A stretch of 64,000 bases of DNA from Mesotoga sp. BH458_6_3_2_1 (GTDB taxonomy: Bacteria; Thermotogota; Thermotogae; Petrotogales; Kosmotogaceae), in NCBI RefSeq assembly GCF_003664995.1, contig NZ_JFHL01000021.1:1-64000 (forward strand), read 5' to 3'. Shown piece after piece: positions 10,116 to 51,079 of the stretch. The position numbers and the translations under genes are program-made. Under the pieces are notes generated by a model. That model made no database searches. It was not told the origin of the DNA and saw only the letters and a list, made by a program, of their open reading frames with translations. Within the stretch, counting starts at the first letter, position 1. The number at the start of each line of letters is the position of its first letter.

Positions 10116-10118
10116 CCA

Positions 10119-29845: not shown

Positions 29846-29972
29846 CACTGCTTGCAGTGACTGGCCTCAGCTTGAAGCTGAGACTGGCACCACGAAGTGG
29901 TACTGGCGAAGGCGAAGCCTTCACTGGCGGCGATGATTCTCGCCTTTTGACTGGCCTGCGAAGCAGACTGGC
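29846..29972 (+). repeat. Tandem hairpin array with ACTGGC separators
   Basis: ACTGGC occurs at 29860, 29883, 29902, 29923, 29950 and 29967. Between successive copies lie different perfect or near-perfect palindromes: CTCAGC-TTGAA-GCTGAG, ACCAC-GAA-GTGGT, GAAGGC-GAA-GCCTTC, GGCGA-TGATTC-TCGCC plus TTTTG, and CTGC-GAA-GCAG. CACTGC-TT-GCAGTG precedes the first. A weaker ACTGGC at 29781 may be an older unit. Confidence 0.9.
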
Positions 29973-29992
29973 TGTTCTTACCTCACATCGCC

Positions 29993-30021
29993 TTGACTGA
30001 GTTAAACTTACAAAGTAAAAT
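29993..30021 (+). promoter_or_regulatory. Sigma-70-type promoter of the glycerophosphodiesterase operon
   Basis: TTGACT, a 17-base spacer, then TAAAAT, each five of six to consensus. It lies 41 bases before the ATG at 30063 and only 20 bases after the last ACTGGC of the hairpin array. Confidence 0.8.
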
Positions 30022-30062
30022 GAATTCAGCAACTCTATATGCCGTCTTTGGAGGCGATTTTG

Positions 30063-30776
30063 ATGTTGGTTTTGGCTCATAGGGGTATGGGGAAGGGCAG
30101 ATACGAGAATACGTTGAAGTCTTTTGAGGAGGGTCTGTCCTACGGCGCACATGGTATTGAGCTCGACGTAAGGCTTACGAAGGACGGCGCGGTGATCTTG
30201 AATCACGATCCCGATCTCAAGAGAACTATGGGATTAGATGTCAATCTATCTGAAACCTCACTCACCGAACTGGACAAGATGGGCCTGATTGGATTTGATT
30301 CTCTAACTACTCTCGAAACGGTTTACAAAGAGCTTCCCGAAGAGACATTTATTAATGTTGAAATCAAGGCCGTTGAAGCCGTCCCGCAAGTAATAAAGAT
30401 TATCAAAAGGTTTGACGCAGTCGAGAGAACCATGTTCTCCTCTTTTCATCATGATTGTCTGATTGCATTCACTCAGGAGTTCTTCGGTAAACCAATGATT
30501 GCACCTATAATAGATAAGGAAATCCGTCAAGTCGGTGGCGAAGAGTATCTAACGGGTGTCATCAAGGAGTACAAGCCCTACTCAGTAAATCTCAATAAAG
30601 ATCTCTTCGAGTACTTGGGACTGGAAAAGGGCCTCTCCATTTTGCGTAAGGTGCGTGAAGGCGGAACCAGAATCTCTCTCTGGACGCTGAACGATCCGAA
30701 TTTGCTCCTCAAGGTTAGGGAAGTCTGCGACTTCCTGATTACCGACTGTTCTGATAAGATGATGGAGGTACTATGA
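30063..30776 (+). CDS. Glycerophosphodiester phosphodiesterase
   Basis: 237 residues. ATG 30063 is chosen because GGAGG lies nine bases upstream. The GDPD signature is complete: LAHRGMGKGRYENTLKSFEEGL (His-Arg and Glu-Asn), GIELDVRLTKDGAVILNHDPDL (Glu, Asp, His of the metal site), VEIK in the middle, and SLWTLNDPNLL near the end. It is a TIM-barrel hydrolase that splits glycerophosphodiesters to glycerol-3-phosphate and an alcohol. There is no signal peptide, so it acts in the cytoplasm, probably on lipid turnover products. Its stop overlaps the ATG of the following lipoprotein gene by four bases, so the two are co-translated. Confidence 0.92.
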   Translation: MLVLAHRGMGKGRYENTLKSFEEGLSYGAHGIELDVRLTKDGAVILNHDPDLKRTMGLDVNLSETSLTELDKMGLIGFDSLTTLETVYKELPEETFINVEIKAVEAVPQVIKIIKRFDAVERTMFSSFHHDCLIAFTQEFFGKPMIAPIIDKEIRQVGGEEYLTGVIKEYKPYSVNLNKDLFEYLGLEKGLSILRKVREGGTRISLWTLNDPNLLLKVREVCDFLITDCSDKMMEVL

Positions 30777-31297
30777 AGCAAACTACGCGCAAAAGCCTTA
30801 TTGTCACCTTTCTAATCTTAATTTCACTAATGATGCTTCTTGTATCCTCTTGCGGAGAGAAGACAGTCCAGCCCGAAGAGCAAATCACGCTTTCTGGGGA
30901 AGAGATTCTTGCTCTTTCGGGAATTGAAGAGAGTGAGATCAATTTCAGCAAGGTCAAGCTAGACGTTTCAGGAAAACCTCAGCTTACAATTGCAGTCTAC
31001 GACGGGGAAGGGAGAGAGATCTTCTCAAAGGACTTCCCTCAAAGTGAAGTTAAGGGAGGCCACGTTACGATTGCTGTGATCAAATCAGAGGTAATCGATG
31101 CCCTGCGATTTCTATATGGCATAACCGACTCAAAGGGAAGCTTCTCCCCAATAGTTCAGGACTTGCCGTACTTCCAGTATCAAAATGTTATTGTCAACAA
31201 CGCCGATATTACAAGAATATCCTCAAAGGGAGAGTTTAGATTGTCTAGCGTAACCTTCGGTCAAGAAAGGCAGGAGATTTTTCTTAGAGTGAAGTAG
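30773..31297 (+). CDS. Lipoprotein of unknown function
   Basis: 174 residues with the lipoprotein signal LILISLMMLLVSSC, lipobox Cys27. The mature domain has about 145 residues and is mostly beta-strand in pattern (KLDVSGKPQLTIAVYDGEG, GGHVTIAVIKSEVIDALRF, YQNVIVNNADITRISSKGEF). No recognised motif. Translational overlap with the glycerophosphodiesterase gene and a 25-base gap to the SYLF gene indicate one operon, perhaps concerned with lipids at the envelope. Function not known. Confidence 0.75.
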   Translation: MKQTTRKSLIVTFLILISLMMLLVSSCGEKTVQPEEQITLSGEEILALSGIEESEINFSKVKLDVSGKPQLTIAVYDGEGREIFSKDFPQSEVKGGHVTIAVIKSEVIDALRFLYGITDSKGSFSPIVQDLPYFQYQNVIVNNADITRISSKGEFRLSSVTFGQERQEIFLRVK

Positions 31298-31322
31298 ATT
31301 CGATGCACCGGGAGGGATTGAC

Positions 31323-31991
31323 TTGAAAAGGCTTTTAGTGGTGGTGATTCTTATGGCTTCTTTAATGGCATTCGGAGCAAGTTTGCCCAAAGAAAGGATT
31401 CAAAATGCCCTAAGTATTCTTCAAGAGCTTTCAGAAACGGAAGACAGTGGATCCTTTGCTGAGTTGATGGGCAAGTCCAACGGAATAGTTATTTACCCTG
31501 AGATGGTGAAAGCCGCGCTTGGATTCGGCGGGCAGTTCGGAGAAGGTTTTATGCTTAAGAGAGGAGAAGATGGCCGCTGGTATGGGCCGTTATTCCTTAA
31601 GCTATACGGCATAAGCTACGGATTTCAGGCCGGTGTTCAGAAGAGCGGTCTGGTGCTTGTCATTATGAACGAGAAGGGCATTGAAGGTTTTCTAAGCAAC
31701 AACGTCACCCTTGGCGGAAGCGCCTCGATTTCAGCCGGGCCCACGGGCAAGACTCTTTCTGCCGATACCGATTACAAACTTGAAGCTGCCATCTACTCTT
31801 ATTCGGTCAGCAACGGCATCTTCGCCGGTGTCTCACTGGGCGGTTCGATTGTTCGCCAAGACACCGAAACGAACAGGGAATACTATGGATTGTCGCTTAC
31901 TCCCACCGAGATTATTGAGAGGGAAGCCAGCGGAGTGGAAATCGAAGAGCTCATTGGGTTTCTCAATTCATTGATTGGCCCCAAAGAATAG
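31323..31991 (+). CDS. SYLF-domain (Ysc84-like) exported protein
   Basis: 222 residues, start TTG 31323 after GGGAGG. The signal peptide MKRLLVVVILMASLMAFGAS is followed by the SYLF/Ysc84 fold: NGIVIYPEMVKAALGFGGQF, GFMLKRGEDGRWYGPLFLKL, GYGFQ-type GISYGFQAGVQKSGLVLVIM, and NVTLGGSASISAGPTGKTL. SYLF domains bind phosphoinositides in eukaryotes and are common as exported bacterial proteins of unclear role, probably touching membrane lipids. It follows a GDPD and a lipoprotein gene, which fits a lipid or envelope theme. Bacterial lipid binding is an inference from the family. Confidence 0.87.
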   Translation: MKRLLVVVILMASLMAFGASLPKERIQNALSILQELSETEDSGSFAELMGKSNGIVIYPEMVKAALGFGGQFGEGFMLKRGEDGRWYGPLFLKLYGISYGFQAGVQKSGLVLVIMNEKGIEGFLSNNVTLGGSASISAGPTGKTLSADTDYKLEAAIYSYSVSNGIFAGVSLGGSIVRQDTETNREYYGLSLTPTEIIEREASGVEIEELIGFLNSLIGPKE

Positions 31992-32079
31992 CCTGGCGCT
32001 TTTGCAGTAAGAAACTGCAATATTCCGAAAAGCAAATCGGCTCTTAACTTCGAAACTCCGATTTGAGAGCTTCTGTTCT

Positions 32080-32108
32080 TTCGGTATCCAGCCTTCCCGT
32101 ACTATAAT
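32080..32108 (+). promoter_or_regulatory. Promoter of the small secreted protein gene
   Basis: A perfect TATAAT at 32103 stands 17 bases after a weak TTCGGT. It lies 38 bases before the GTG start at 32146. Confidence 0.55.
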
Positions 32109-32145
32109 GGCTTCAAGGCAGCTCCTTCTTGGCTAGAAAGGGTAG

Positions 32146-32646
32146 GTGAGGGTTCTGAGACTTCTCTTGGTTTTGTTCATTGCTCTTGTATCCGCTGGCC
32201 TCGCTGTGAATATTGAAACAATCGAGAGCCTCAAGAATGGCTGTTGTAGTACCAATTCGAGGGGCTTTGAGATGGAAGACGGTTATGTTGCAACCGTTAC
32301 TGCAATTCCCTATGAAGCCATTTCGGAACTGGGTATTCCAATCGATGATCTAGTAGGCCTCCTGTTTTTTGAGCTACCGGAGAACTCTCTGGAGGTATCG
32401 TTTCTGAGCGTTACTGTAACAGGGAAATGCAAGCGGGGCGAGCCTGTGGACGGGGTCTGGGCAGATCTATACATAATTGGGGAAGGGTTTCTTGTCCAAA
32501 CTGCAAGGTATGATCCATTTATTCTGATTGATTCAAATAGACTAGTAGTTGCTCTCTCGATTTACCTCGATACGTCAATTTACTATTCAGTTGTTCTGAA
32601 TGGAAGTGGAACAACCATCAAATGGGAGTTCAACAATGTCATGTGA
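32146..32646 (+). CDS. Small exported protein of unknown function
   Basis: 166 residues, start GTG 32146 with AAAGGGTAGG upstream. The signal peptide (MRVLRLLLVLFIALVSAGLA) is followed by a compact, beta-rich mature domain of about 145 residues with a vicinal cysteine pair (NGCCSTNSRG) and another Cys in TVTGKCKRGEP, so a disulfide is possible. No lipobox and no known motif. The hybrid kinase gene follows after 45 bases and may share its transcript, making the protein a candidate for a periplasmic partner of that sensor; this is inference. Confidence 0.6.
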   Translation: MRVLRLLLVLFIALVSAGLAVNIETIESLKNGCCSTNSRGFEMEDGYVATVTAIPYEAISELGIPIDDLVGLLFFELPENSLEVSFLSVTVTGKCKRGEPVDGVWADLYIIGEGFLVQTARYDPFILIDSNRLVVALSIYLDTSIYYSVVLNGSGTTIKWEFNNVM

Positions 32647-32691
32647 CGAGACAATGCAGTTCGATTCAGAAAAAGGGGGCGGAGGTCTGCG

Positions 32692-35496
32692 ATGAGAAAG
32701 CTTAGCAGAAAGATCTCTCTTCAGTTTCTGCTTTTCGTTCTGGCGGTATTGACTGTACTCGTCACACTACTTTCGATAACATTTGTTCGCACTGCCACAG
32801 ATGAATACAAGAGCTATCTCAGCTCGAAGAAGCAATCTGTCTTTCAGTGGTTCATCGATCTGCGCAGAGACATGAAGCTCTTTGTTGACGGGTACGCTCT
32901 AGAAGGCGTGTTAAACAACGAATATGACGTTCTCGTCCGACTTGGGGAAGAAAGAGATATAATCCTAAACAGGTCCGCGCTTTCCGAAGAGGAAATCGAT
33001 GAGCTTAAAAACTCTGGGAACGGCTTCAGAATGTTTGAAAGACAGCTTGTTTACTTCTCCACAATGATCAGCAACGAATCGCAGTACGTGGTCGGAATAG
33101 TCTTCGACAACAATGATATAGAGAGTCTTTCATTTTTTCTAGGACAGGATGGAATCGCTTTTCTTCTTATTGACGATTACTTCGTGATTTCCAGAGAGTT
33201 CTCAGACTCCGGCCTTTACGTCAGGACGGTACTTGACGAGGAGAGATGGTCAAGCGAAATACCATTCTCCGTAAGCGAGCCAAGACCAGCCTTTTCAATC
33301 TTTTCCTCCGGTTCGCGCTTCTTGGTAGACAAGGTTTCAATCGGCGGCGCAGATATATATGTTCTTCAGTCTGAAGGCCTTCTAGTAATGCTTAGAAACA
33401 GACTTCTTCCGATTCTCAGTATCGTTGTGCTGGGTGTATTTGGATTCTCATTCGTACTCTCCTTCTCTCTTAACTCCCATATATCCAAAGCCCTTTCTGA
33501 GTTGCTGAAGGGATTTGAATCGATAAAGAAGGGATCCTTTTCACGGGTGAAACTCAATTCCAACGATGAACTCGGAGAGATTGCCTCAGAACTTAACAAC
33601 ACAATGGGGTTCATAGAGAAGACACTGGACAGACTTAAGAACTCCAACGAGTTGCTCAGAAAGGTTTCAAAAGAAGCACAGCAGGCGAGTAAGATGAAAT
33701 CGGAATTTCTCGCCAACATGTCTCACGAGATGAGGACTCCGATGAATGCTATCCTGGGCTTTGCCGAGCTTTTGATGAACGAGGAGACGAATCTTGAAAA
33801 AATGAAGTACTTGAAGACTATTTACAGAAGCGGAGAGCATCTTCTAAGCCTTATCAACGATGTGCTCGATCTCTCCAAAATTGAAGCGGCCCGTTTCGAC
33901 CTTATGATCTCCCCTTACAGCCCAACGAAACTGGTCAGCGAGTTGACCGAAACATACCTTCCGATGGCATATTCAAAGGGTCTGCATTTTGCAAACAGCA
34001 TAACCGAAAGAGTTCCGGAATATGTCGACGGTGATGAGTTCAGAATGAGACAGGTTTTAACAAACCTGATTTCAAACGGTCTGAAATTCACCGAGAAGGG
34101 ATATGTTTCCATACTTCTTGACTATGATGGGAAACACCTGATCTACGCCGTTCAAGATACAGGCTTCGGGGTCTCCAGAGATGAAATTGACAAGATTTTC
34201 GAACCCTTTATCCAGGCAGATGGGACAATGTCAAGGAAGTTCGGTGGAACGGGCCTTGGCCTGGCCATAACGAAGAGAATTATTGAATTGATGGGTGGAA
34301 CCATAAGGTTTGAGAGTAAGGTTGGTGAAGGTTCGAAAGTAACTGTGAGAATACCTTCACAGATCTCAACGGAAATACCTAAGCAGAAGGAAAAGGCAGA
34401 GCTCCCTGTATCGGGAAAGGTCATCCTTGCATCGGAAAATGAGGATTTTCTTATTATTATTGGCTCGATGTTAGGAAGAAATGGAGTACGCTTCGAGCCC
34501 GTTACAAATCTAGCCAATCTCTCAAGAGCGGTAAGAGAACTAGGCGCATCTCTTGTAATTGTAGACACTCCGAAGAATGCGAGCGAAGCTCTTACTGCTC
34601 TTGACGAAATCAGTGAAGCCGCCATAATAGTAATAACAGATGCTTCGAAGGATGAGGTCCAGTTTGGCGACAGGGCAGACGAAATAATTCAGAAGCCGGT
34701 GAAGGAAGATGAGCTTCTGAGCAAAGTTGGGAATTATTTCGAACTAAAGCCGAACTCTGCCAGTGACAAGTATAAGATTCTTCTGACTGAAGATAATGAA
34801 GCCAACCAGCTGTTGATAAAAGAAGTACTTGAAAAGGCAGGTTATTCCGTCGATCTTGCCGGCAATGGTAAGGAGGCCGTGGAGAAGATAAGGAGAGACA
34901 ACTACAATCTCGTTCTTATGGATATGCAAATGCCTGTTATGGACGGTTATGAAGCCACAAAGATATTAAGAGAAGAAGGTTACAAGATACCGATTATTGC
35001 CTTGACTGCACACACAATGCAGGGAGATGAGGAAAAGACAATCGAGGCCGGGTGTGACGGCTTCCTTGGGAAACCTGTTAAGCAGTATGACCTTCTCGAA
35101 GTTGTTCGTTACCACCTTGGTGTTTACGGAAAGAACGTAAATAGAAGAGCAGACAGCTTTTCCAAGCCGGGTGCGGCTAAGCATTCATCGGATAGTATCA
35201 GTCTCTTCGCAAAGGACATGGGATTATCTGTGGAAGAGGCAACCGCTATGTTCGCCGAATATGGGAAACACATTGACAAGACAATTGCCAATATCCAGAG
35301 CTCCCTCGAGAGAAAGGACATGGCATTCATCTCCAGAGAGGGCCACGGCCTTAAGGGTTCCGGCAGGATGTACGGTGTAGAGGAGATTTCCGAGATAGGT
35401 TTCGTGATTGAGACGGCAGCAAAAAACGGCGATGAACAAAACGTCTCTGATAATCTGCTAAGGCTGCGAAAGGTTTATAGGAGATTCTGGGAGTAG
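32692..35496 (+). CDS. Hybrid sensor histidine kinase with two receiver domains and HPt
   Basis: 934 residues. A first membrane helix (about 10-32), an extracytoplasmic sensor region (about 35-230), a second helix (about 235-257), a HAMP linker, a coiled linker, then HisKA with His345 (FLANMSHEMRTPMNAI). HATPase follows (NLISNGLKFTEKG, DTGFGVS, GGTGLGLAI). The first receiver (about 565-675) is degenerate: it lacks the acidic pair and has VDTPK at the acceptor site. The second is complete, TEDNEAN with VLMDMQMPVMDG (Asp744). A C-terminal HPt module carries His885 (HGLKGSGRM). This is a BarA/ArcB-like phosphorelay machine. The signal and target regulator are unknown; no regulator gene is adjacent. 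Confidence 0.92.
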   Translation: MRKLSRKISLQFLLFVLAVLTVLVTLLSITFVRTATDEYKSYLSSKKQSVFQWFIDLRRDMKLFVDGYALEGVLNNEYDVLVRLGEERDIILNRSALSEEEIDELKNSGNGFRMFERQLVYFSTMISNESQYVVGIVFDNNDIESLSFFLGQDGIAFLLIDDYFVISREFSDSGLYVRTVLDEERWSSEIPFSVSEPRPAFSIFSSGSRFLVDKVSIGGADIYVLQSEGLLVMLRNRLLPILSIVVLGVFGFSFVLSFSLNSHISKALSELLKGFESIKKGSFSRVKLNSNDELGEIASELNNTMGFIEKTLDRLKNSNELLRKVSKEAQQASKMKSEFLANMSHEMRTPMNAILGFAELLMNEETNLEKMKYLKTIYRSGEHLLSLINDVLDLSKIEAARFDLMISPYSPTKLVSELTETYLPMAYSKGLHFANSITERVPEYVDGDEFRMRQVLTNLISNGLKFTEKGYVSILLDYDGKHLIYAVQDTGFGVSRDEIDKIFEPFIQADGTMSRKFGGTGLGLAITKRIIELMGGTIRFESKVGEGSKVTVRIPSQISTEIPKQKEKAELPVSGKVILASENEDFLIIIGSMLGRNGVRFEPVTNLANLSRAVRELGASLVIVDTPKNASEALTALDEISEAAIIVITDASKDEVQFGDRADEIIQKPVKEDELLSKVGNYFELKPNSASDKYKILLTEDNEANQLLIKEVLEKAGYSVDLAGNGKEAVEKIRRDNYNLVLMDMQMPVMDGYEATKILREEGYKIPIIALTAHTMQGDEEKTIEAGCDGFLGKPVKQYDLLEVVRYHLGVYGKNVNRRADSFSKPGAAKHSSDSISLFAKDMGLSVEEATAMFAEYGKHIDKTIANIQSSLERKDMAFISREGHGLKGSGRMYGVEEISEIGFVIETAAKNGDEQNVSDNLLRLRKVYRRFWE

Positions 35497-35827
35497 GATT
35501 TGAGGTTGCATCTATAGCTTCGACCAGGCTTCCTTAAGGATTTCTCTGTCAGTCTTGACTAATCGCATCACTTTTCTGTTGAGAACTCTCGATGGGTGCT
35601 CCCATTCCAATTCCGCTGGGTTCTGTGCAAAAGAATCACTATTTCATTTTCCCCACTTCGATACAAGCTTGATTCTCCAACATAAGAGAGAAGCAGGCAT
35701 TCAAGATATGGTAACATTGAGAATACTACTCAATAATGCAGACGGAACTGACTATTTCGAACATCCGCAACCCAGAAGTGATTCGGTCATTTTCAGTACT
35801 GATTCCATTTGAAAGAGAGGGAAAAGC
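35497..35827. other. Spacer with a possible gene remnant
   Basis: On the minus strand a frame without a start codon, about 35514-35640, reads FAQNPAELEWEHPSRVLNRK, then VMRLVKTDREILKEAWSKL and a stop. It looks like the tail of a lost gene, but the family was not recognised. The rest is unique sequence without modules. Confidence 0.3.
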
Positions 35828-36898
35828 ATGGCCACAGTATTCTTTACTGATATGGAGACCACTCCACAGATGGGACTTCTCTCAAAGGTCGAGGCTCTTG
35901 TTAAGAAAGCTGGTCTTGAAGACGTAATTGAGGCCGGCAAGCTTGTTGCAATCAAGCTTCACTTTGGGGAGTACGGAAACCTCGCCTACATCAGGCCGAA
36001 CTATCTGAGGGTGATCGCCGATCAGATAAAGAAACTGGGGGCCGTTCCCTTCCTCACTGATGCAAACACTCTTTACAAAGGGAGCAGGGCAAATGCTGTC
36101 GATCACATCGCGACTGCCTCCTTGAATGGCTTCACGATGGAGTCAGTGGGCACACCGGTTGTAATTGCCGATGGACTTAGAGGCTCGGATGAAATCGATG
36201 TCGAAATAGAGGGTGAATTCATTAAGAAAGCGAAAATCGCATCTGCGATAGCTCTAGCAGACGCCCTTGTTGTTGTAAGCCACTTCAAAGGACATGAGCA
36301 AACTGGATTTGGAGGGGCACTCAAGAATATTGGAATGGGTTCAGCCTCACGGGCCGGAAAAATGGAACAGCACTCCGAGTCCAAGCCGGTTGTCAGAGAG
36401 ACAAACTGTGTGGCTTGCGGAATGTGTGAGAGAAACTGTCCGACTGGAGCGATTACAGTTGAAAGAGTCGCGAGAATCAACTACGATCTCTGTATCGGCT
36501 GCGGTCAATGCATTGCCATGTGCAACTACGGTGCGATGAGCGCCGGACCGGGCGGCACCCCAGAGTCTCTGAGCAAGAAGATTGCCGAATACGCTCTTGC
36601 AGCTTCAAAAGGAAAGAAGGCCCTCTATATCTCCTTCATCAACAACGTGTCGCCGGATTGCGATTGCTGGCACATAAACAGGCCTCCAGTAGTGGAAGAT
36701 ATCGGCATAGTGGCAAGCAGAGATCCGGTAGCGCTGGACAAGGCATGCATAGACTTAGTTATCAAAAGACTGGGATATGATCCTTTTGAGAAGGCCCATC
36801 CCGGTATCACCTGGCATCATCAACTGGAGCATGCCGAAAATATCGGACTGGGAAAAACCGCCTACAAACTCCAGAAAGTCGCCTGCTTCGGCAGATAG
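35828..36898 (+). CDS. DUF362 family protein with two 4Fe-4S clusters
   Basis: 356 residues. The N-terminal DUF362 domain (about 1-190) includes IKLHFGEYGNLAYIRPNYLR, FLTDANTLYKGSRANAVDH and VVVSHFKGHEQTGFGGALKN. A ferredoxin module follows, with two full 4Fe-4S motifs, CVACGMCERNCPTGAI and CIGCGQCIAMCNYGAM. The C-terminal part (HINRPPVVEDIGIVASRDPVALDKACIDLV) is the usual end of this family. It is cytoplasmic, with no signal peptide. The family is widespread in anaerobes and presumably transfers electrons to an unknown reaction. GAGAGGG precedes the ATG. No partner oxidoreductase is adjacent. Confidence 0.88.
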   Translation: MATVFFTDMETTPQMGLLSKVEALVKKAGLEDVIEAGKLVAIKLHFGEYGNLAYIRPNYLRVIADQIKKLGAVPFLTDANTLYKGSRANAVDHIATASLNGFTMESVGTPVVIADGLRGSDEIDVEIEGEFIKKAKIASAIALADALVVVSHFKGHEQTGFGGALKNIGMGSASRAGKMEQHSESKPVVRETNCVACGMCERNCPTGAITVERVARINYDLCIGCGQCIAMCNYGAMSAGPGGTPESLSKKIAEYALAASKGKKALYISFINNVSPDCDCWHINRPPVVEDIGIVASRDPVALDKACIDLVIKRLGYDPFEKAHPGITWHHQLEHAENIGLGKTAYKLQKVACFGR

Positions 36899-36931
36899 CA
36901 ATGAAAGATCCAGGAAAAGCTATTTTCTTGC

Positions 36932-39101: not shown

Positions 39102-39123
39102 CAGAAAGCACAAAGTAATTCTC

Positions 39124-43034: not shown

Positions 43035-43113
43035 TACGGTAACATATGTTACCGATCGGGGCTCTTCGGTTTGCTAAGATAGTATTAACATTAGAGGCGA
43101 GGTGATGAAGTTG

Positions 43114-43428
43114 GTGAAGAGCTCAATTGAAAAGGGCAAAGTTGCACTTGACAGACCCGGACTAAAGGGTCGGATAATCTACGACAGAGAGAATGCGCAG
43201 GCGGTCGTCATTGACATAGCCGAGGGGATGGAGTTGGCCGAGCACAAGACACCTGTCGATGTTTTCATACTGGTGCTCGCCGGTAGAGGAATAATCACTA
43301 TCGGCGGAGATAAGCATGAAGTAATGAAAGATGACATCATAGACAGTCGGAAAATGATACCGCACGGAATAGTCAACACCGGAGAAGAGACTTTGCGGGT
43401 TCTGGTAGTGAAGGCACCTCATCCATAG
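43114..43428 (+). CDS. Small cupin protein
   Basis: About 104 residues. GTG 43114 is chosen because GAGGTGAT ends seven bases upstream; ATG 43105 and GTG 43102 are in frame too. The single cupin barrel has MELAEHKTPVDVFILVLAGRG in place of the first HxH motif and MIPHGIVNTGEETLRVLVVK as the second. The first motif keeps only one His, so metal binding would be partial. Small cupins of this kind often act as isomerases, dioxygenases or sensory domains. Terminator at 43436. Monocistronic. Confidence 0.8.
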   Translation: MKSSIEKGKVALDRPGLKGRIIYDRENAQAVVIDIAEGMELAEHKTPVDVFILVLAGRGIITIGGDKHEVMKDDIIDSRKMIPHGIVNTGEETLRVLVVKAPHP

Positions 43429-43435
43429 ATATTAA

Positions 43436-43464
43436 GGCCGGGTCTAAGCATTTCCGACCCGGCC
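43436..43464 (+). terminator. Intrinsic terminator
   Basis: Perfect nine-base stem GGCCGGGTC / GACCCGGCC with an 11-base loop and then TCTCATTT, just after the cupin stop codon. Confidence 0.85.
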
Positions 43465-43510
43465 TCTCATTTACCAAGTCTTCAGTCAATCCGAAAAGAG
43501 AATTTTCAAG

Positions 43511-44545
43511 TTATATCGTCGGAGTTCTTATTATAGGTCTGCTTCCTCTATTTATGCTGTTCTTCTCATAGATCATTATCTCAAAGGGAATCCTGAAACT
43601 GAGAGGACCTACCGCACCCTTCATACTCCCGAGGCTCCTGTCCCTCGAAAAGTTTATCAGCGTTATGCCCTCTTGCCAGGCGCATCTATGGATCTTTCTT
43701 ACGATCTTTCGCGCGCTTCGGATATCGTCCCAGCCGAAGAGAAGAACGTCCCAGGACCTCAATCGCTCGTTCATTTTCGGGATCCTCACCAGCGGTGAAA
43801 GAGTTCCCTGAGCCAGAAGCTGGAAGGCCCTCAACCCCTTTGAAAGGCGTGTGATTCCAAAGTCCTGCTCGCCGCTCGTGTCGAGAACCAGGGCGTATGC
43901 ACCTTCAGTCTTGAATAACCTCAATCTCCTCTCTGTAACCATCACTTCGAAGGCCTTAGTACCTTGAAGAAGAAGGTCATGATCCTTCTCGAGAGGTTTG
44001 TAAAGGTCCAAAATCGTTTCCAGGTCGACCTCCCTTTCCACAAAAACCGACTTCTCCTGAGAGGTCTTCCTAACCGGGCAGGCGTAGAAGTCCAGAGTCG
44101 CCATAGTGGAGAAACCCATGTGCTCGAGAATCTTCTTCGAGGCGGTGTTGTCGGCCTTAACCGAGGCATATCCGAAATCGAAATCCGTGGGGCCAAGAAG
44201 ATTCTGCAGTTCCTGAATGATCGACTTCAGCCAGCGGGCGACTTTCAGCCTGTATTGCGGGTTCGTCCGAAGCCCAAAGAGATATATGCCCTTTTTGATC
44301 TCTCCGTTGACGATCAGGTTGTCGATTCCAACACCGATACATCCGATGATGTCATAGGCGTCTTCGGCAATCATAATGAAACCCTCTTCGAAGTACTTCA
44401 GTCTTCCAAAGAAGTCCTCTCTGAATGCAACTAGCCAGATGCTCCCCTCCTGAGCCGACTCTCGCTCGATCTTGAGGAGCTTTTCGTTGTCATCGATTGA
44501 GGCGAATCTTACATGGATGTTTCCTGCCTTCTTGTTTTCCATCAA
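43511..44545 (-). CDS. GNAT-type N-acetyltransferase
   Basis: 344 residues. The N-terminal half (1-155) has the GNAT pattern: VRFASIDDNEKLLKIERESA, IGCIGVGIDNLIVNGEIKKG, LFGLRTNPQYRLKVARWLKS for the acetyl-CoA loop, and KADNTASKKILEHMGFSTMA. The second half (residues 170-344) has GNAT-like strand-helix alternation but no clean motif and may be a degenerate second acetyltransferase domain. It follows the S9 peptidase gene by only a few bases on the same strand, so they are co-transcribed. Substrate unknown; a peptide or amino acid is a reasonable guess from context. Confidence 0.75.
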   Translation of the reverse strand: MMENKKAGNIHVRFASIDDNEKLLKIERESAQEGSIWLVAFREDFFGRLKYFEEGFIMIAEDAYDIIGCIGVGIDNLIVNGEIKKGIYLFGLRTNPQYRLKVARWLKSIIQELQNLLGPTDFDFGYASVKADNTASKKILEHMGFSTMATLDFYACPVRKTSQEKSVFVEREVDLETILDLYKPLEKDHDLLLQGTKAFEVMVTERRLRLFKTEGAYALVLDTSGEQDFGITRLSKGLRAFQLLAQGTLSPLVRIPKMNERLRSWDVLLFGWDDIRSARKIVRKIHRCAWQEGITLINFSRDRSLGSMKGAVGPLSFRIPFEIMIYEKNSINRGSRPIIRTPTI

Positions 44546-44549
44546 CGGC

Positions 44550-46499
44550 TCATATCTTCAGATGGGAATCGAACCATTCCAGTATTGCCCTCAAACGCTT
44601 TTCTCTATGTATGGGAAGGCCGCCTCTGGAAAGCTCGTGGTTCTCCTTCGGGAAGAGCACCATTTTGGCTTCTTTGCCTAGATATCTTAACGCAGTAAAA
44701 AACTGCATCGCTTCGGGGACCCAGCATCTGTAATCTTCAAGGGAGTGAATGAAAAGAATCGGAGTGACGACGTTGGGTGCCGACATCAGAGGTGACTGCC
44801 TTAGATAACCCTCGAGGTTGTCGAAGAAATCGCCTCCGGTCTGGTCGCTTGCAAAGAAATATCCTATATCCGTAGTGCCGAAGAAGGAAATCCAGCTCGA
44901 GATAGACCTCTGGGAGACGGCCGCCTTGAAGGCGTCAGTATGTCCTACAATCCAGTTTGTCATGAAGCCGCCGTATGAGCCCCCGGTGACACCGAGCCTC
45001 TCTTCGTCGACGAAATCGCACTCATTTATCACGTACTCGACGATTTCCATTATGTCTTCGAAATCCCTTTCTCCATAATGACCTCTTATGTCGGCGAAGT
45101 CGGTCCCGTAACCGGCGCTTCCCCTCGGGTTGCAGTAGATAACTGCATACCCTTCGGAGGCCAGAGTCTGGAATTCATGTATATATCCGCCGCCATATGC
45201 CGTCTTCGGCCCTCCGTGGATCTCCACTACGGCCGGGTATTTCTTCCCTTCCTCGAAGTTGAACGGCCTCATTATCCAGCCTTCGATCTTTTGACCGTCA
45301 GAGGCCTCCACTTCGAAGCTCTCCGGCTTCGACAGCTTTATACCCTTAATCCAGGAGTTGAAGTCTGTGAGCTTCTTCCTCTTGCCTTTGACAAGAGAGT
45401 AGATCTCCAGTGGCTCTGTCGTAGTCATCTCGGAAAGGAGAAGCGCCTCGCCCGCGATATCGAAGCAGTCTATGCTCCCCGAAGAGACAGCGATTTCCTC
45501 GACCTTTCCCTCTTTATCCATAGAAATCAGCTTTATCTGCGACCCGGCAGTTACGAGTGAATACAACTTGTTTTCTACTACCTTTATGGACGTGTTCGGC
45601 GAGACGCCCCTCACATCGCTGTTCAGGCTGTTGCCGAAGTACAGGTCCATTTCTCGTGCAAGAGCAGCAAGCTTAAGAGATTCCAGATTAACGTGTACTA
45701 TGAAGGGATTGGTTGGAAAGCCCTTCTTGAAGTCTGTCGCGACAGCGAAGAGTTCGCTATCGTCTGACCACTCGCAATGATAGAAAGAGAGGGTGTCGTC
45801 TCCGATTCTCTTCGCAGTTCCGCTTTGTAAATCGAGGACGTAGAGACTGCTCCATATCGGTCTCTTCTCCATCTCTTCCGTTGTCGTCACCGCGGCACTC
45901 TTTCTCTCGGGAGATAAAACGATGCTTTCGATATCGCCTCCGACGGCCTCAATCGGTTCCATCTTTCCATTTTCGAGTTTCATCTTATATAGATGGCCTG
46001 TTCTGTTCTCGGTGAATCCAGCGCCGTTAGAGACAAATGGTATTTTGTCTATTTCGTAAACCTTCTTCTCTGGAGAATCGTCTTCTTCGATCTTCTCGGG
46101 GTCTTCCCCGGGGGCGTGCTTCGTTATGAAGAGAACCGTCTCCGAATCGATCCACGAGACAGAGGAGAATCCTCCTTTAAGAGTCTTCACCAGTCTGCTT
46201 TCACCGCCCGCAAGAGGCAGAAGATAAAGCCCTGATCCCTTCGCATCCTTGTCTCTTCCAGAGACAAAGAGAATACTCTTGCCGTCTGGACTGACAACTG
46301 GGGAACCGTCCTTCCCGCCACGGGTCAGCTGCCGGACCTCTCCACTTTTCATGTTGCCCGACCAGATGTTGCTTTCGTACTGGTTCTTCTTCTTGTCCAT
46401 AGTCTTTCTTACAAAGACAAAGTTCTCCCTATCGGGAAAAATGTGAAGATCGCCCACAGCGGAGTATTTGTAGAGATCCTCAAGCTTCAGCTTCTTCAA
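44550..46499 (-). CDS. S9 family prolyl oligopeptidase-like peptidase
   Basis: About 649 residues. TTG 46499 is chosen because AAAGGGGTGATCTCG precedes it; the frame runs open to 46547. Residues 1-390 form a beta-propeller with WD-like repeats (SPVVSPDGKSILFVSGRDKD, SPERKSAAVTTTEE). The alpha/beta hydrolase domain follows with VEIHGGPKTAYGGGYIHEFQ, the nucleophile Ser in GVTGGSYGGFMTNW, Asp in FIHSLEDYRCWV, and His in FPKENHELSRGG. The family cleaves small peptides in the cytoplasm (acylaminoacyl-peptidase/dipeptidyl-peptidase type). There is no signal peptide. It is upstream of a GNAT gene in one operon and divergent from pyroglutamyl peptidase, so the area is rich in peptide-catabolic genes. 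Confidence 0.92.
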   Translation of the reverse strand: MKKLKLEDLYKYSAVGDLHIFPDRENFVFVRKTMDKKKNQYESNIWSGNMKSGEVRQLTRGGKDGSPVVSPDGKSILFVSGRDKDAKGSGLYLLPLAGGESRLVKTLKGGFSSVSWIDSETVLFITKHAPGEDPEKIEEDDSPEKKVYEIDKIPFVSNGAGFTENRTGHLYKMKLENGKMEPIEAVGGDIESIVLSPERKSAAVTTTEEMEKRPIWSSLYVLDLQSGTAKRIGDDTLSFYHCEWSDDSELFAVATDFKKGFPTNPFIVHVNLESLKLAALAREMDLYFGNSLNSDVRGVSPNTSIKVVENKLYSLVTAGSQIKLISMDKEGKVEEIAVSSGSIDCFDIAGEALLLSEMTTTEPLEIYSLVKGKRKKLTDFNSWIKGIKLSKPESFEVEASDGQKIEGWIMRPFNFEEGKKYPAVVEIHGGPKTAYGGGYIHEFQTLASEGYAVIYCNPRGSAGYGTDFADIRGHYGERDFEDIMEIVEYVINECDFVDEERLGVTGGSYGGFMTNWIVGHTDAFKAAVSQRSISSWISFFGTTDIGYFFASDQTGGDFFDNLEGYLRQSPLMSAPNVVTPILFIHSLEDYRCWVPEAMQFFTALRYLGKEAKMVLFPKENHELSRGGLPIHREKRLRAILEWFDSHLKI

Positions 46500-46597
46500 C
46501 GAGATCACCCCTTTCAGAATCATTCTACCAGAATGACGGCTTTTCATTCTCGACTTCCTTATGATGCTAAAATTATAGGGAATGAGAGGTGTAAAAG

Positions 46598-47200
46598 ATG
46601 ATACTCGTGACCCATTTCGACCCCTTCGGAGGAAGTAAAATAAACGCTTCGCAAATAGTCGTGGAGCTTCTAGCAGATATTAGGGAAGGCATTGAGCTCA
46701 TGAGCCTACCAACGGTCTTTGACGACGCCTTTTCTCGACTGAGGCTGCGGCTCCTAGACAACGTTCCGGAGGCGTTGATCATGGTGGGCCAGGCGGCCGG
46801 GAGATCTCTCGTTACTCCAGAGAAGATTGCGATCAACTGGAAGGAATCCGCGACTCCGGACAACAGCGGATTCATTGCGACCGGTGAGAAGATAATTCCT
46901 TCCTCTCCCGACGGATACTTTTCGAGGCTTCCGGTCGACGGGATCGTCTCGAAACTTAAGGCTGAGGGTCTTCCAATCGAGAAGTCTTTCTCAGCAGGCG
47001 CGTTTGTCTGTAACTATCTCTTTTACAGGTGTATGGACTTTCTCACGAAGAGAGGCATAGACATCCCGGCCGGGTTCGTACATATACCGTGCATTCACGA
47101 ACAGATAGGTCCGGGAGAAGAGAGACCTGCAATAGAGGCGGAAGTCTCGGCTAGGGTCCTTTCGAGGATAATAGATCTTGCAGTGGAGGAAAATAGATGA
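46598..47200 (+). CDS. pcp: Pyroglutamyl-peptidase I
   Basis: 200 residues, the usual size of peptidase family C15. ILVTHFDPFGGSKINASQIV is the typical start. VGQAAGRSLVTPEKIAIN precedes the Glu of the active site, the nucleophile Cys is in SFSAGAFVCNYLFYRCMDF, and the catalytic His is in GFVHIPCIHEQ. It removes N-terminal pyroglutamate from peptides in the cytoplasm. ATGA-type overlap with the following nitrilase gene (start 47197) shows a tight two-gene operon. It is divergent from the S9 peptidase gene across 98 bases. The start has AGAGGTG upstream. Confidence 0.9.
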   Translation: MILVTHFDPFGGSKINASQIVVELLADIREGIELMSLPTVFDDAFSRLRLRLLDNVPEALIMVGQAAGRSLVTPEKIAINWKESATPDNSGFIATGEKIIPSSPDGYFSRLPVDGIVSKLKAEGLPIEKSFSAGAFVCNYLFYRCMDFLTKRGIDIPAGFVHIPCIHEQIGPGEERPAIEAEVSARVLSRIIDLAVEENR

Positions 47201-47946
47201 GAATAGGCGGCGTTCCTCTCAACATAGTTTGGGAGTCTCCAGAGATAAATATGAAGATAATCGAAAGACTTTTCGCCGGGGCCTCGGAGGCAGGCGTTGA
47301 GCTGATTGTTTTTCCCGAAACTGCCTTGAGCGGGTTTACTCCTAACGCAGAGAAGGCTTATGTGAGAGATGCATGTGGTTTCTTCAAGAAGCAGGTAGAT
47401 CACTGGGGTATTCCGGCAGTCTACGGCTTCATAGACAGAAGAGATTCGAAATTCTACAACTGCGCCGCTTTTCTTTCTTTGGATTCGGAGCCTTTGATAT
47501 ATAGGAAGAGAAAGCTGTTTTCTTACGGAGGGGAGAATATCGTTTACAGCCCCGGTGACACTAATCTCTCTTTCAAGATGAAAAACATACACTTCTCTCT
47601 GAACATCTGTTACGATCTTCGTTTTCCCGAGCTCTTCAGGGCCAACTTGCCTGCAGAGGTCATGATAGTAATTGCCAACTGGCCGGAAAAGCGAGCTAAT
47701 CACTGGCAAGCTCTTCTCAAGGCGAGAGCAATCGAGAACCAGTCATTTGTTCTGGGTCTAAACAGGACTGGGGTTGACGGCAACGGCATAGAATACGACG
47801 AGGCTTTTTCAGTACTCTTCGATCAAGATGGTAACGAAGTACCCTTTGAAGCAGAGAAGGGATTGCTTCTGTGGGAACTGGACTATGAGAGAATGAGTAT
47901 TCTAAGAGACTGGCGGGAGAGATTCCCCGCCCTGAAGGATATATGA
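47197..47946 (+). CDS. Nitrilase-superfamily amidase (omega-amidase-like)
   Basis: 249 residues with the full Glu-Lys-Cys triad of the carbon-nitrogen hydrolase family: Glu in LIVFPETALSGF, Lys in LIYRKRKLFSYGGE, and Cys in LNICYDLRFPELFRANLPAE. The closing EYDEAFSVLFDQDGNEV and final strand are standard. Closest in feel to omega-amidase/Nit2-type enzymes, which hydrolyse amides such as alpha-ketoglutaramate. The gene overlaps the pyroglutamyl peptidase gene by four bases, so both are made together and probably deal with glutamine-derived peptide fragments or repair products. Cytoplasmic. Confidence 0.88.
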   Translation: MRIGGVPLNIVWESPEINMKIIERLFAGASEAGVELIVFPETALSGFTPNAEKAYVRDACGFFKKQVDHWGIPAVYGFIDRRDSKFYNCAAFLSLDSEPLIYRKRKLFSYGGENIVYSPGDTNLSFKMKNIHFSLNICYDLRFPELFRANLPAEVMIVIANWPEKRANHWQALLKARAIENQSFVLGLNRTGVDGNGIEYDEAFSVLFDQDGNEVPFEAEKGLLLWELDYERMSILRDWRERFPALKDI

Positions 47947-47960
47947 AGCTCTAAACCCTA

Positions 47961-48218
47961 CTAGAGGGTCTGATCTGATTCCAGTTTCAATACCTCTCTC
48001 ATGAAGAATTCGTCGACGTTTTTCATCGAAATTCCGGTGAATCTTTTCTCGTCTATGTCGACTACAACTCCGTCGCAACAGGGTCCCATACAGTGGGACG
48101 CCTTTAAGGTGGCAAGGTTGCCTAAACCATGTTCGTTAACCAGATCCATGAGCCTCTTACTGACCTCGGAAGAGCCTTTCATAAGACACGCGCTTCCCAT
48201 GCAGACTTTGATAATCAC
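47961..48218 (-). CDS. Small thioredoxin-fold [2Fe-2S] ferredoxin
   Basis: About 85 residues. GTG 48218 is selected because GGAGG stands seven bases upstream. Two cysteine pairs, IKVCMGSACLMKG and ASHCMGPCCDGVV, match the C-x4-C...C-x3-C pattern of the thioredoxin-like [2Fe-2S] ferredoxins (NuoE C-terminal domain, HydC/HydA-associated subunits). It carries one cluster and would shuttle electrons between soluble oxidoreductases. No hydrogenase or NuoF gene is adjacent here. It is convergent with the nitrilase gene. The role is inferred from the fold only. Confidence 0.82.
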   Translation of the reverse strand: MIIKVCMGSACLMKGSSEVSKRLMDLVNEHGLGNLATLKASHCMGPCCDGVVVDIDEKRFTGISMKNVDEFFMREVLKLESDQTL

Positions 48219-48355
48219 GGGCAAACCTCCATTTGTGACTACTTTCACAACAGATTATAACCTAATTAATACGTTTTTTTCGGAACATGATCTTCCGCAG
48301 CTTTCTCGAAGATTTCACACTTCTACTGGTATGATTTCATCGTGGAGGAGTAGAA

Positions 48356-49033
48356 ATGAAGATTCTGATTGTTGAAGATGAGCGTAGTCTGGGCAGATTG
48401 CTTAAAGAGTCTCTCGAAAGAGAGGGCTTCATCGCCGAACTTGCAGTCGACGGGGAAGAGGGGCTTTATATGGCTCTCGACGGCCCCTTTGACGTTATTG
48501 TTCTGGATATTCTGATCCCCAAACTTACCGGCTGGCAGGTGCTTGAGAAGATAAGAGATTCGGGAAGCAGAATACCAGTTCTGATGCTTACGGCTCTGGA
48601 TAGCATCGAAGACAAAGTCCGGGGCTTCGACTTAGGGGCCGACGACTATCTTCCGAAGCCATTCGATATCAGGGAACTTGTGGTAAGGATTCAGTCTCTT
48701 TTGAGAAGGGCTCAGTTTGGCGGAGCTCCTTCAAGAGTTCTGAAAGTAGGAGATCTGGAGCTGGACATGTCGCTTAAGACCGCAAGCAGGGGAAACGAGA
48801 AGATAGAACTCCGAAAGAAGGAGTACCAGATCCTCGAATATCTAATGCTCAACAGTGGCAGGGTCGTTCCGAAGAGCGAGCTCGAAGAACATCTCTGGAA
48901 TGAAGACGATGAACTGTGGTCGGACGTAATTAGAAGCCATATAAAGAATATCCGCAAGAAGATCGACGGAGGACGAAGAAAGAAGCTGATAAAGACGGTC
49001 AGGGGAATGGGTTATGAGATCAGTGACAGGTGA
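48356..49033 (+). CDS. OmpR-family response regulator
   Basis: 225 residues. The receiver has the acidic pair in LIVEDERSLG, acceptor Asp51 in VIVLDILIPKLTGWQVL, the switch Thr in VLMLTALDS, and Lys in GADDYLPKPFDIREL. The winged-helix DNA-binding half (about 130-225) has RKKEYQILEYLMLNSGRVVP and SDVIRSHIKNIRKKIDGGRR, then TVRGMGYEI. The partner kinase starts inside its last codons (49014). TGGTATGAT (about 48327-48335) is a plausible extended -10. Target genes are not evident. Confidence 0.93.
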   Translation: MKILIVEDERSLGRLLKESLEREGFIAELAVDGEEGLYMALDGPFDVIVLDILIPKLTGWQVLEKIRDSGSRIPVLMLTALDSIEDKVRGFDLGADDYLPKPFDIRELVVRIQSLLRRAQFGGAPSRVLKVGDLELDMSLKTASRGNEKIELRKKEYQILEYLMLNSGRVVPKSELEEHLWNEDDELWSDVIRSHIKNIRKKIDGGRRKKLIKTVRGMGYEISDR

Positions 49034-50300
49034 AGGACTCTCATTCAGAAAGGCAAAGAGGAGATGGACGCTATTCTTCACCCTCATCGTCATCTCTCTC
49101 GTTTCCCTGCTGAGTCTCTTCATTTTCGTCCTCGCCCTAAGGCTTGAAAGAGGGGCCGAAATAACTGCCTTGAACAGAGTTGCAGATAGGATCGAGGCCA
49201 GAATCGGAAGGGCACCCCTGATAGCCCTGGAGAGAATGCTCAGGAACTATTCCGGAAATCTTGACCTCTTCACCGCGGAAAACGAGATCCTGGAGTTCGT
49301 CACTCCTGATGGAGAGAGTGTACTTCAGCTCGGAGGGACGATAAAGAGCAATCTGCCGTTAGTTGAGGGGGCTTCGAAGGCAAAGGTCGTTGATTACGAT
49401 GACTCGGAACTCGAATACAACATTCTTACAAGAGCTATTAGAAATATCGCGGGACAACCGGTTTTCTTCCTTAGGGTTGGAAGATCTATCGAAGGGCTGA
49501 GCGAAAAATCTACCAGTCTTCTCTTTTCCCTGATTCTACTGATAGTGCTCGTCGCGGCCATCTCCTGGATAGTCGGTCTGGCCTTAGCCGGTTACGTTCT
49601 GACACCTCTGAGAGAAAGCTATGATAGACTTCAGCGCTTCACTGCCGACGCTTCTCACGAGTTAAAGACGCCCCTTACGGTTATGAGGCTGAGCGTAGAT
49701 CTGCTCAAGAGCAGACCACTGGAAAGTGAGTCGAGAGACAAGATAGATGCGATTGACGGTGCTACCCGGAGTATGCAGAATGTTGTCAATCAACTCCTGC
49801 TACAGGCAAAAGCAAACAACGATAGTTCGGCGGTGATATCTTATCAGGATGTGAGAGTTCGTGAGTTTCTCGAAGAGATGAAAGAGTATCACAGAACCTT
49901 CGCCGAATCGAAAGAGGTCCGAATAATCCTTGAGAGCGATGAAGATCTCTTCGTCAGGACCTATCTGGACAAACTTAAAGTCGCGGTTGCGGCCGTGCTT
50001 GAAAATGCTATCAAGTTCACCGAAGAGAAGAGCGATGTCACCGTTAAGGCCTTTGAGAGAGAAGCTTCACTCCTCATTCAGATAGGCGATTCCGGACCCG
50101 GCATAGATGACCCGGATAAGGAAAGGATATTCGATAGATTCTACAAGATAGACGAATCTCACAACAGCTCGGGAAGCGGCATGGGTCTCTCAATAGCAAA
50201 GGAAATGATCGGCTCGCTAGGGGGCGAAATAACTGTCGAGAACCGCCCCGGCGGAGGAAGCATATTTGAAATACGAATACCATCAAGAAAGCACAAATAG
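49014..50300 (+). CDS. Sensor histidine kinase
   Basis: 428 residues. Two membrane helices (about 22-42 and 165-190) enclose an extracytoplasmic sensor of about 120 residues. A short linker leads to HisKA with His215 (ADASHELKTPLTVMRLSVDLL) and HATPase_c (ENAIKFTEEKSDV, IGDSGPGID, SGMGLSIAKEMIG). Its translation overlaps the regulator gene by 20 bases, so the pair forms one two-component system. Signal unknown; the sensor domain shows no family I can name. Confidence 0.92.
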   Translation: MRSVTGEGLSFRKAKRRWTLFFTLIVISLVSLLSLFIFVLALRLERGAEITALNRVADRIEARIGRAPLIALERMLRNYSGNLDLFTAENEILEFVTPDGESVLQLGGTIKSNLPLVEGASKAKVVDYDDSELEYNILTRAIRNIAGQPVFFLRVGRSIEGLSEKSTSLLFSLILLIVLVAAISWIVGLALAGYVLTPLRESYDRLQRFTADASHELKTPLTVMRLSVDLLKSRPLESESRDKIDAIDGATRSMQNVVNQLLLQAKANNDSSAVISYQDVRVREFLEEMKEYHRTFAESKEVRIILESDEDLFVRTYLDKLKVAVAAVLENAIKFTEEKSDVTVKAFEREASLLIQIGDSGPGIDDPDKERIFDRFYKIDESHNSSGSGMGLSIAKEMIGSLGGEITVENRPGGGSIFEIRIPSRKHK

Positions 50301-50385
50301 GCTCTTTCTTATATCCGGACTTTGATGAGATGATGATGAAAACGAGGTTCGGGGTTGGTGGTTGCGGGTAGGAAGAGCAAGAGTA

Positions 50386-50481
50386 GAAGTGATGCTGCCT
50401 CCGGCAGGAGGCGAGGCCGCCTTCGTCGGGAAGTGATGCCCGGAAGAGCATCCGGGGAAGTGATGCCGCTTCCGCGGGAGG
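50386..50481 (+). repeat. Tandem hairpin array with GAAGTGATGC separators
   Basis: GAAGTGATGC stands at 50386, 50430 and 50457. The palindromes following are TGCC-TCC-GGCA, CCGG-AAGAGCAT-CCGG and CGC-TTCC-GCG. The CCGG..GCATCCGG unit is nearly the same as one in the array at 1780-1880. Confidence 0.8.
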
Positions 50482-50923
50482 AATTCAGAAGCTAGTCTGC
50501 TTTCGTAGGCCAGCTCCCACTATGTCGGGCGAAACGACTGCTGTTTGTTTGAAAGAAAATGCTTCACGCAGTGAAAAAACAGTCCATGCCCCGGATCAAG
50601 GGATGATCCTCTAGAAACTGTTTGAGCTTCTGAATAAGGATTTTAATCCTCCCTTGAGGGAGGAGGGCCACGTAGTGGCGGAGGGTGTGAGTCTCCAACG
50701 TTTGGAAAAGTTACTGCCCTGACATAGTCCCCTGAGACGGTTGTTCGATGTTCATTCCTTGTTGCTTCTATGAGAATACCTATGGATCACAGACCAAACA
50801 ACTTGAAGAGTGAATTTGTCGTTCAATTTCGAACAGGCCAATCTATTCCAAAAGCTGTTCAAAGACCACACTCCCCACCGCAAGCGGTCCCCCCCGCTCA
50901 AGCGGGGATTTAAGATCAAGAGC
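50482..50923. repeat. Inverted block, right copy
   Basis: Reverse complement of 19296-19846 with scattered mismatches and without the 110-base insertion of that copy. It includes GAATAAGGATTTTAATCCTC, GGAGACTCACACC in reverse, CAATTTCGAACAGGCC, and ends in the CCGCAAGCGG and CCCCGCTCAAGCGGGG palindromes. It contains no protein-coding frame. Confidence 0.85.
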
Positions 50924-50985
50924 ATTAAGAGCCGTCCATGATTTGGGACAATTAACGAAGGATGGCTCTTTGCCCGCGCAGCGGA

Positions 50986-51079
50986 ACTGGCCTCGCCGAA
51001 GGCGAGACTGGCACCACGAAGTGGTACTGGCGAAGGCGAAGCCTTTACTGGCGGCGATGATTCTCGCCTTTTGACTGGT
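50986..51079 (+). repeat. Tandem hairpin array with ACTGGC separators
   Basis: ACTGGC lies at 50986, 51007, 51026 and 51047, with a final ACTGGT at 51074. The units are CTCGCC-GAA-GGCGAG, ACCAC-GAA-GTGGT, GAAGGC-GAA-GCCTTT and GGCGA-TGATTC-TCGCC plus TTTTG. The last three are the same, in the same order and spacing (19, 21, 27 bases), as in the array at 29846-29972. Confidence 0.9.

Follow-up and report, generated by a model that had tools for sequence, protein, structure and literature searches.

Arrays of varied mini-hairpins between constant ACTGGC separators in Mesotoga and a second genus of the Kosmotogaceae

Repetitive extragenic palindromes (REPs, in the definition of PMC12306157) are short stem-loop palindromes of one consensus hairpin that occur in many copies per genome in non-coding DNA, and bacterial interspersed mosaic elements (BIMEs) are the mosaic clusters into which short constant motifs join such palindromes, in alternating orientation. 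In Mesotoga prima, REPs have been counted by a program (PMC12306157) and CGTC-3 REPs have been described (PMC3733652). Small perfect hairpins are also known from the REPtrons of REP-associated tyrosine transposases (RAYTs), with stems of 5 bp in Marinomonas and of 8 bp with a 3-base loop in Stenotrophomonas, and REP transposases use folded single-stranded DNA (ssDNA) of one strand as their substrate, in some cases perfect hairpins of 5 bp, and cleave it at CT or CA (PMC8266576). Here we describe intergenic arrays in which hairpins of many sequences alternate with a constant hexamer, ACTGGC, starting from a stretch of 64,000 nucleotides (the window) of Mesotoga sp. BH458_6_3_2_1 (contig NZ_JFHL01000021.1, positions 1 to 64,000). 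They are best explained as REP/BIME-like composite intergenic repeats of the Kosmotogaceae, made of DNA-folding units that turn over at their separators, a reading to which we give a probability of about one half. Compared with REPs and BIMEs, the constant and variable parts are exchanged: separator and loop are conserved and the stems are diversified.

Array 1 (29860-29972, + strand) contains six exact copies of ACTGGC, starting at 29860, 29883, 29902, 29923, 29950 and 29967, with five different hairpin units in between: CTCAGCT-TGA-AGCTGAG (CTCAGCTTGAAGCTGAG, 29866-29882), ACCAC-GAA-GTGGT (ACCACGAAGTGGT, 29889-29901), GAAGGC-GAA-GCCTTC (GAAGGCGAAGCCTTC, 29908-29922), GGCGA-TGATTC-TCGCC followed by TTTTG (GGCGATGATTCTCGCC, then TTTTG, 29929-29949), and CTGC-GAA-GCAG (CTGCGAAGCAG, 29956-29966), a type that usually closes arrays. 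At its head stands the palindrome CACTG-CTTG-CAGTG (CACTGCTTGCAGTG, 29846-29859, +). Array 2 (50986-51079, +) has four exact separators, starting at 50986, 51007, 51026 and 51047, a decayed ACTGGT at 51074, and four different units: CTCGCC-GAA-GGCGAG (CTCGCCGAAGGCGAG, 50992-51006), ACCAC-GAA-GTGGT (ACCACGAAGTGGT, 51013-51025), GAAGGC-GAA-GCCTTT with one G.T pair (GAAGGCGAAGCCTTT, 51032-51046), and GGCGA-TGATTC-TCGCC, again followed by TTTTG (GGCGATGATTCTCGCC, then TTTTG, 51053-51073). Its head palindrome is CCGC-GCA-GCGG (50974-50984, +). These exact coordinates confirm the original prediction that a fixed ACTGGC alternates with small palindromes at both loci, and they amend it in detail. Three consecutive units do follow the same order in both arrays, one of them differing by a base; most of the hairpins called perfect are so, but not all (CCTTC against CCTTT, hence the G.T pair); and the first units differ as claimed, although the proposed CTCAGC-TTGAA-GCTGAG folds better with the longer stem given above. 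The TTTTG ahead of the separator that follows the GGCGA unit is a further correction.

The window holds 39 copies of ACTGGC against 20.0 expected, a number reached by none of 100 shuffles, and the whole genome (3.23 Mb) has 140 ACTGGC-N9-19-ACTGGC sites, where the reversed control pattern gives 5. Two sister families, built alike, occupy the same intergenic regions as the ACTGGC arrays (family A): family B, whose separator is CMTCACTTC (133 separator pairs in the genome and none for the control), and family C, whose separator is CMTTGCGWC. The shuffles and controls exclude a chance origin. More than 100 short arrays lie between the genes of the Mesotoga genome and its relatives, and only one of 92 family A arrays falls inside an open reading frame (ORF) of at least 180 aa, so that in location, as in being short stem-loop palindromes with many copies per genome, they resemble REPs.

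Units were taken from 1.66 Mb of stretches from the Mesotoga genome, five congeners and named contigs of metagenome-assembled genomes (MAGs). Because assignment with two mismatches yields chance matches in 4-bp stems, units were defined by two exact flanking separators alone, palindromy not being required. The 373 instances (149 distinct) have quantised lengths, nearly all of 11, 12, 13, 15 or 17 bases, and their outermost four positions form Watson-Crick pairs in 81% of cases, against 40% when the ends of different units are re-paired. In a smaller set of 32 distinct 13-base units, 93.1% of stem cells are paired, against 62.8% after shuffling (0 of 500 shuffles). The arm covariation that the original prediction had proposed as a check is present in the same set, with a score of 0.764 against 0.247 for shuffled units, and falls to 0.06 or less when the partner is slid by 1-3 columns. 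The four outer pairs vary freely, and the innermost C-G pair and the G and A at the loop ends are constant, giving loops of the form C-GNA-G, or C-GNNA-G in the CTGC unit, with variable inner bases. Among perfect-stem units, with the CTCTGCC and CTCAGCT modules set apart as exceptions to the loop rule, about 95% of triloops are GNA; their middle base is other than A in about 30%, but a change of the first or last base is confined to about 6%. Of 56 tetraloops, 50 are GNNA, and 40 of these carry a pyrimidine in third place, unlike the RNA GNRA rule. Units of families B and C have either GNA loops or a 6-7 base loop of the TGNTCY(T) type, the latter on stems such as CCCGGA, CTGGGA, CGCCGA, CACTGA and CTGGCG.

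GNA and GNNA loops are the rule for exceptionally stable DNA mini-hairpins (PMC4686876). In the promoter hairpins of phage N4, the C-G closing pair and the loop G and A are required for extrusion in vivo (PMC4496689), and the array units share this combination of a C-G closing pair with a first G and a last A in the loop. The likeness to the N4 early promoters extends to the short stem and 3-base loop, but those are single promoters for the virion RNA polymerase and have neither arrays nor separators. REPs keep their hairpin and vary the rest, whereas family A alone has 19 different perfect stems. Its length-typical units comprise 266 with perfect stems, against 32 with a G.T pair, 12 with an A.C pair, 31 with a transversion and 20 with multiple changes.

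Each array has two to five units, all in one orientation as given by the separator and loop strand, unlike BIMEs. Modules are recombined in many orders between constant separators, as in BIME mosaics, with some bias of position (CTCGCC, CTTTGC and CGCAC tend to come first, CTGC last). A hairpin type is never found next to itself, in 196 (A), 110 (B) and 42 (C) adjacent pairs, where 16.5, 21.7 and 5.7 repeats are expected with positions kept. When distinct module strings are counted once, the result is the same, with no repeat among 92 pairs in A (8.1 expected), 41 in B (6.8 expected) or 27 in C (3.4 expected, p = 0.02), and no type occurs twice anywhere in one array (0 of 217, or 0 of 284 in a looser set). 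This pattern is the opposite of that of tandem-duplicated arrays.

Turnover affects whole units. At one locus (L023, 169 versus 4521), two copies 4.3 kb apart have flanks matching almost base for base, yet the first two units read CGCAC and CACC in one copy and CTCGCC and CAGGC in the other, and the adjoining C and B arrays have each cleanly lost or gained two units. In two further pairs of loci with high-identity flanks, L063 is short of precisely the CAGGC unit and one separator relative to L018, and L160 of precisely the CTCAGCT unit relative to L169. Where the Mesotoga genome and its relative G003 are about 98-99% identical their arrays are identical; at larger distance the orthologous spacer often carries other repeats or none. 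In one older orthologous array, whose next gene has 74% identity, all four stem changes keep a G.T or Watson-Crick pair, as judged by eye. Upstream of array 1 lies a decayed member (29775-29799, +) with the remnant of a head hairpin, ACTGGC at 29781-29786 and the unit CGCGC-GAA-GTGCG (29787-29799, one G.T pair), and the orthologous place in G003 reads TGCAC-GCA-GTGCG. By its own terms the original prediction would have failed had the palindromes lacked covariation and the copies been random decay products of one known transposable element; decay of one palindrome or transposon is excluded by the several discrete palindrome libraries that stand between an unchanged separator.

A spaced ACTGGC with palindromes between, which the prediction suggested looking for in related genomes, exceeds the control in eight of ten genomes of the genus and in both genomes of a second genus (g5), so that the proposed layout of a short constant separator and variable self-complementary units holds genus-wide and beyond. 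ACTGGC arrays do not exceed the control in the five other Kosmotogaceae genomes examined, and family B was not found in three genomes of the genus. The same arrays also occur in a Mesotoga sp. MAG and in a Kosmotogaceae MAG. Outside the family there were chance matches only, two of them (L152, in a MAG, and L154, in Armatimonadetes) being coding or chance and without palindromes, and no arrays were found in viral contigs. The separator is unchanged in g5 and both loop classes are found again, but the hairpin library is almost wholly different: CTGC, CAGGC, CACC and CTCGCC are shared in a few arrays only, and the other hairpins differ, examples being CCGAG-TGGTCTT-CTCGG, ACGATC-N7-GATCGT, ACAGGC-GTAA-GCCTGT and CTAGC-GAA-GCTAG. 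Separator and loop are therefore long-lived and the stems short-lived. Two loci of g5 (L288, 144-400, and L289, 1500-1900; genomes G015/G016) carry longer ACTGGC arrays with stems of up to 8 bp that start with A and end with T, and the separators ACGGGC and ACTGTGC in another array (L286) suggest variants in this genus.

In our preferred reading, a unit would be kept because it is obliged to fold as a DNA hairpin, either while single-stranded behind the replication fork or when extruded by supercoiling. Replication could slip from one ACTGGC to the next, past the folded hairpin, and so delete a unit, and arrays could trade units through strand switching or recombination that ends in separators and flanks. 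Identical neighbours would amount to a perfect tandem repeat, prone to collapse, which would leave only arrays whose hairpins all differ. Of the functions that the prediction had offered, selection on DNA folding with a substrate for reshuffling is favoured by the data, and a chain of RNA stem-loops less so. It is possible, and only tentatively entertained, that the arrays are categorically new: combinatorial, non-repeating mini-hairpin cassettes with a genus-divergent library, exchanged at short fixed junctions, ACTGGC and those of the sister families, by a dedicated, putative ssDNA enzyme.

Single non-Watson-Crick pairs, read on the separator strand, are more often G.T than A.C in family A (23:10) and family B (14:3), and separator mutations have no such bias (25:21). 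With the innermost pair of long-loop units left out, the summed ratio of 35:15 departs from 1:1 (p = 0.007). This hints that one single strand matters.

Several points weigh against the preferred reading. Family C has no G.T excess (3:8, the doubtful innermost pair accounting for most cases), and 35:15 does not differ significantly from the separators (Fisher p = 0.14), so the one-strand claim is only suggestive. GNA loops can also form in RNA, and the DNA fold in the cell is one that we infer. Gene conversion of the ordinary kind, with another array as donor, can account for the unit swaps, and the no-repeat rule might be a passive outcome of tandem collapse or array copying. Many copies are related by descent, which makes the loop and unit counts interdependent.

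The strongest rival remains a neutral one, which we regard as unlikely: template switching by DNA polymerase between the arms would make and repair perfect inverted repeats, producing covariation without structural selection, and the separators would be incidental. Such switching is reported to create and maintain perfect stems (PMC8794818), and this agrees with stems that differ by one-pair steps (CGCAC, CACAC and CGCGC; CACC and CGCC) and with the frequency of broken stems, about a quarter of the length-typical A units having at least one non-Watson-Crick pair. However, it does not explain why the closing C-G pair and the loop-end G and A are conserved when the middle base varies, nor the quantised lengths, the absence of a recurring hairpin within an array, or a 6-base separator common to two genera whose stems have diverged.

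Also unlikely is a chain of stem-loops acting in RNA, in which the arrays would be transcribed and the hairpins would serve stability, protein binding or termination. The G.T (in RNA, G.U) excess on the ACTGGC strand of families A and B would fit this, as would the reported ability of hairpin clusters to terminate transcription (PMC8355165). Family A arrays have a weak tendency to follow a gene that runs in their own direction (40 of 63, p = 0.04), but families B and C have no strand bias relative to the upstream gene (20 of 41 and 9 of 23). Compared with its shuffles, array 1 has the better fold as RNA (z -2.7), but also as DNA (z -2.5); tetraloops are mostly GNYA rather than GNRA, and most arrays lack a following T-run. 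Searching the window against Rfam 15 at the gathering score gave only group II intron matches, none at the arrays; these lie at 1511-1648, 10042-10117 and 11773-11892 (-), and the Rfam entries matched are RF02003, RF00029 and RF01999. An RNA role is weakly supported.

The arrays might instead bind a protein, such as gyrase, a nucleoid protein or single-stranded DNA-binding protein (SSB), with either the separator or the loop of the hairpins as the part that is recognised, which we judge to be rather improbable. BIMEs are known protein-binding sites. They are presented in this role in the abstract of PMC2817692. A constant separator and loop with variable stems is what a protein reading those two parts would leave. 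A fixed host function at each site is nevertheless disfavoured, because orthologous sites in other species are often without an array or carry other repeats.

In the CGTC-3 REPs of M. prima (PMC3733652) there is a likeness in genus, in palindromic intergenic character and in the apparent lack of a dedicated transposase, and the family C separator also ends in CGTC. These REPs have stems of 8-9 bp with A/T pairs first, 4-5 base loops and mostly head-to-head dimers, and they differ in this from the arrays: family C separators end in GCGTC, but the stems are of 5-6 bp, not 8-9. Neither GTAG nor CGTC tags the foot of the family A hairpins, which are preceded by ACTGGC, and CGTC-like elements (ATTCTGAA...TTCAGAAT-GACG) in these genomes are separate from the ACTGGC arrays. 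With RAYT REPtrons the arrays share small perfect hairpins with loops of 3-4 bases, which in REPtrons stand beside a constant tetranucleotide and are strand-specific ssDNA substrates, but the GTAG tag, the single hairpin per species and the flanking RAYT gene are all absent from ACTGGC arrays.

The Mesotoga genome encodes two RAYT-like Y1 proteins, which score below the curated NCBIfam cut-off. One gene (L007) has no array at its flanks; the other (L006) has a different, inverted repeat on either side (GCGAAAATAGGGACTGAC...GTCTGTCCCATTTTTCGCG, at 966-1025 and 1895-1945), with a decayed array beyond it on one side. That repeat is dispersed through the genus (its pattern matches 45 times in the loci examined) and carries GGGACTGAC, and 14 of 194 array 3' ends run directly into its right half, at an ACTGRC motif. 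There was no Y1 transposase match in the array-rich genomes G002, G003, G015 and G016, so dependence on a RAYT is not supported, and in G001 and G010-G013 a Y1 transposase is present and arrays are absent. Although the two Y1 proteins, the CT within ACTGGC (REP transposases cut at CT or CA; PMC8266576) and the junctions with the L006 repeat would suit them, ordinary REPs mobilised by a RAYT with ACTGGC as a tag in place of GTAG are the least probable source, since genomes with a Y1 protein and genomes with arrays do not coincide, the element beside the RAYT gene is a different repeat, and REP hairpins are one conserved sequence where array hairpins are not.

The phrase "a CRISPR turned inside out", from the original prediction, is a fair picture of the layout, a constant element alternating with variable ones as in clustered regularly interspaced short palindromic repeats (CRISPR), but none of the present data tie it to CRISPR (leader and cas genes were not searched for). 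Identical repeats of about 23-47 bp with non-shared spacers are not found here: the constant part is 6 bp, the arrays are tiny, and the self-complementary units recur across arrays and species. Repetitive hairpin-forming elements are also found in sponge mitochondria, and we know of no arrays with a constant separator among them. Such elements are reported to be, like ours, intergenic, hairpin-forming and spreading (PMC2800124). In agreement with the prediction that no named element has this layout, no description of ACTGGC hairpin arrays was found in the open full-text literature (subscription papers not covered).

In the complete genome G003, the strand of the arrays is organised in large domains (two-breakpoint p = 0.002), which cannot be assigned to the leading or lagging strand because GC skew is too weak. 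On its chromosome (C1) arrays are mostly on the minus strand below 1.82 Mb and mostly on the plus strand above, with none at about 0.22-0.90 Mb. A replication-strand bias is no more than a lead, as composites 2.5-20 kb apart are not significantly concordant and the skew is too weak. Between about 1.76-1.84 and 1.85-1.93 Mb of the same chromosome, the same arrays recur with their order kept, displaced by about 76.3 and 86.5 kb, a pattern suggestive of a large segmental duplication.

Three family B sites lie in the window. The first (1780-1864, - strand) is an array of three units, CTCGC-GCA-GCGAG, CCCGGA-TGCTAC-TCCGGG and CTGGGA-TGTTCT-TCCCAG, and the others are single units with a separator on each side, CTCGC-ACCA-GCGAG (19960-19991, +) and CCCGGA-TGCTCT-TCCGGG (50430-50465, -). 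A dense mixture of further intergenic repeats is seen at 29400-29700 and at many intergenic loci, including the CGTC-type REP in the form ATTCTGAA-N5-TTCAGAAT-GACG, another repeat, ATCCCGTA-N9-TACGGGAT, and linear strings such as GGACGGTGGACCGTTGACGG and TAACCCGATCCTAG.

The overall reading of the original prediction is supported. Bacterial intergenic repeats are usually expected to keep their palindrome and to grow by duplication; in ACTGGC arrays the palindrome is variable, duplication within an array is never seen, and only the separator and loop survive between genera. The junction and loop, as the parts that are read, can be separated from the stem, which is needed to fold, and the question of what is selected in REP-like elements therefore becomes testable. 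The arrays offer a natural experiment on the deletion and exchange of units driven by hairpins, in a genus that is rich in such elements.

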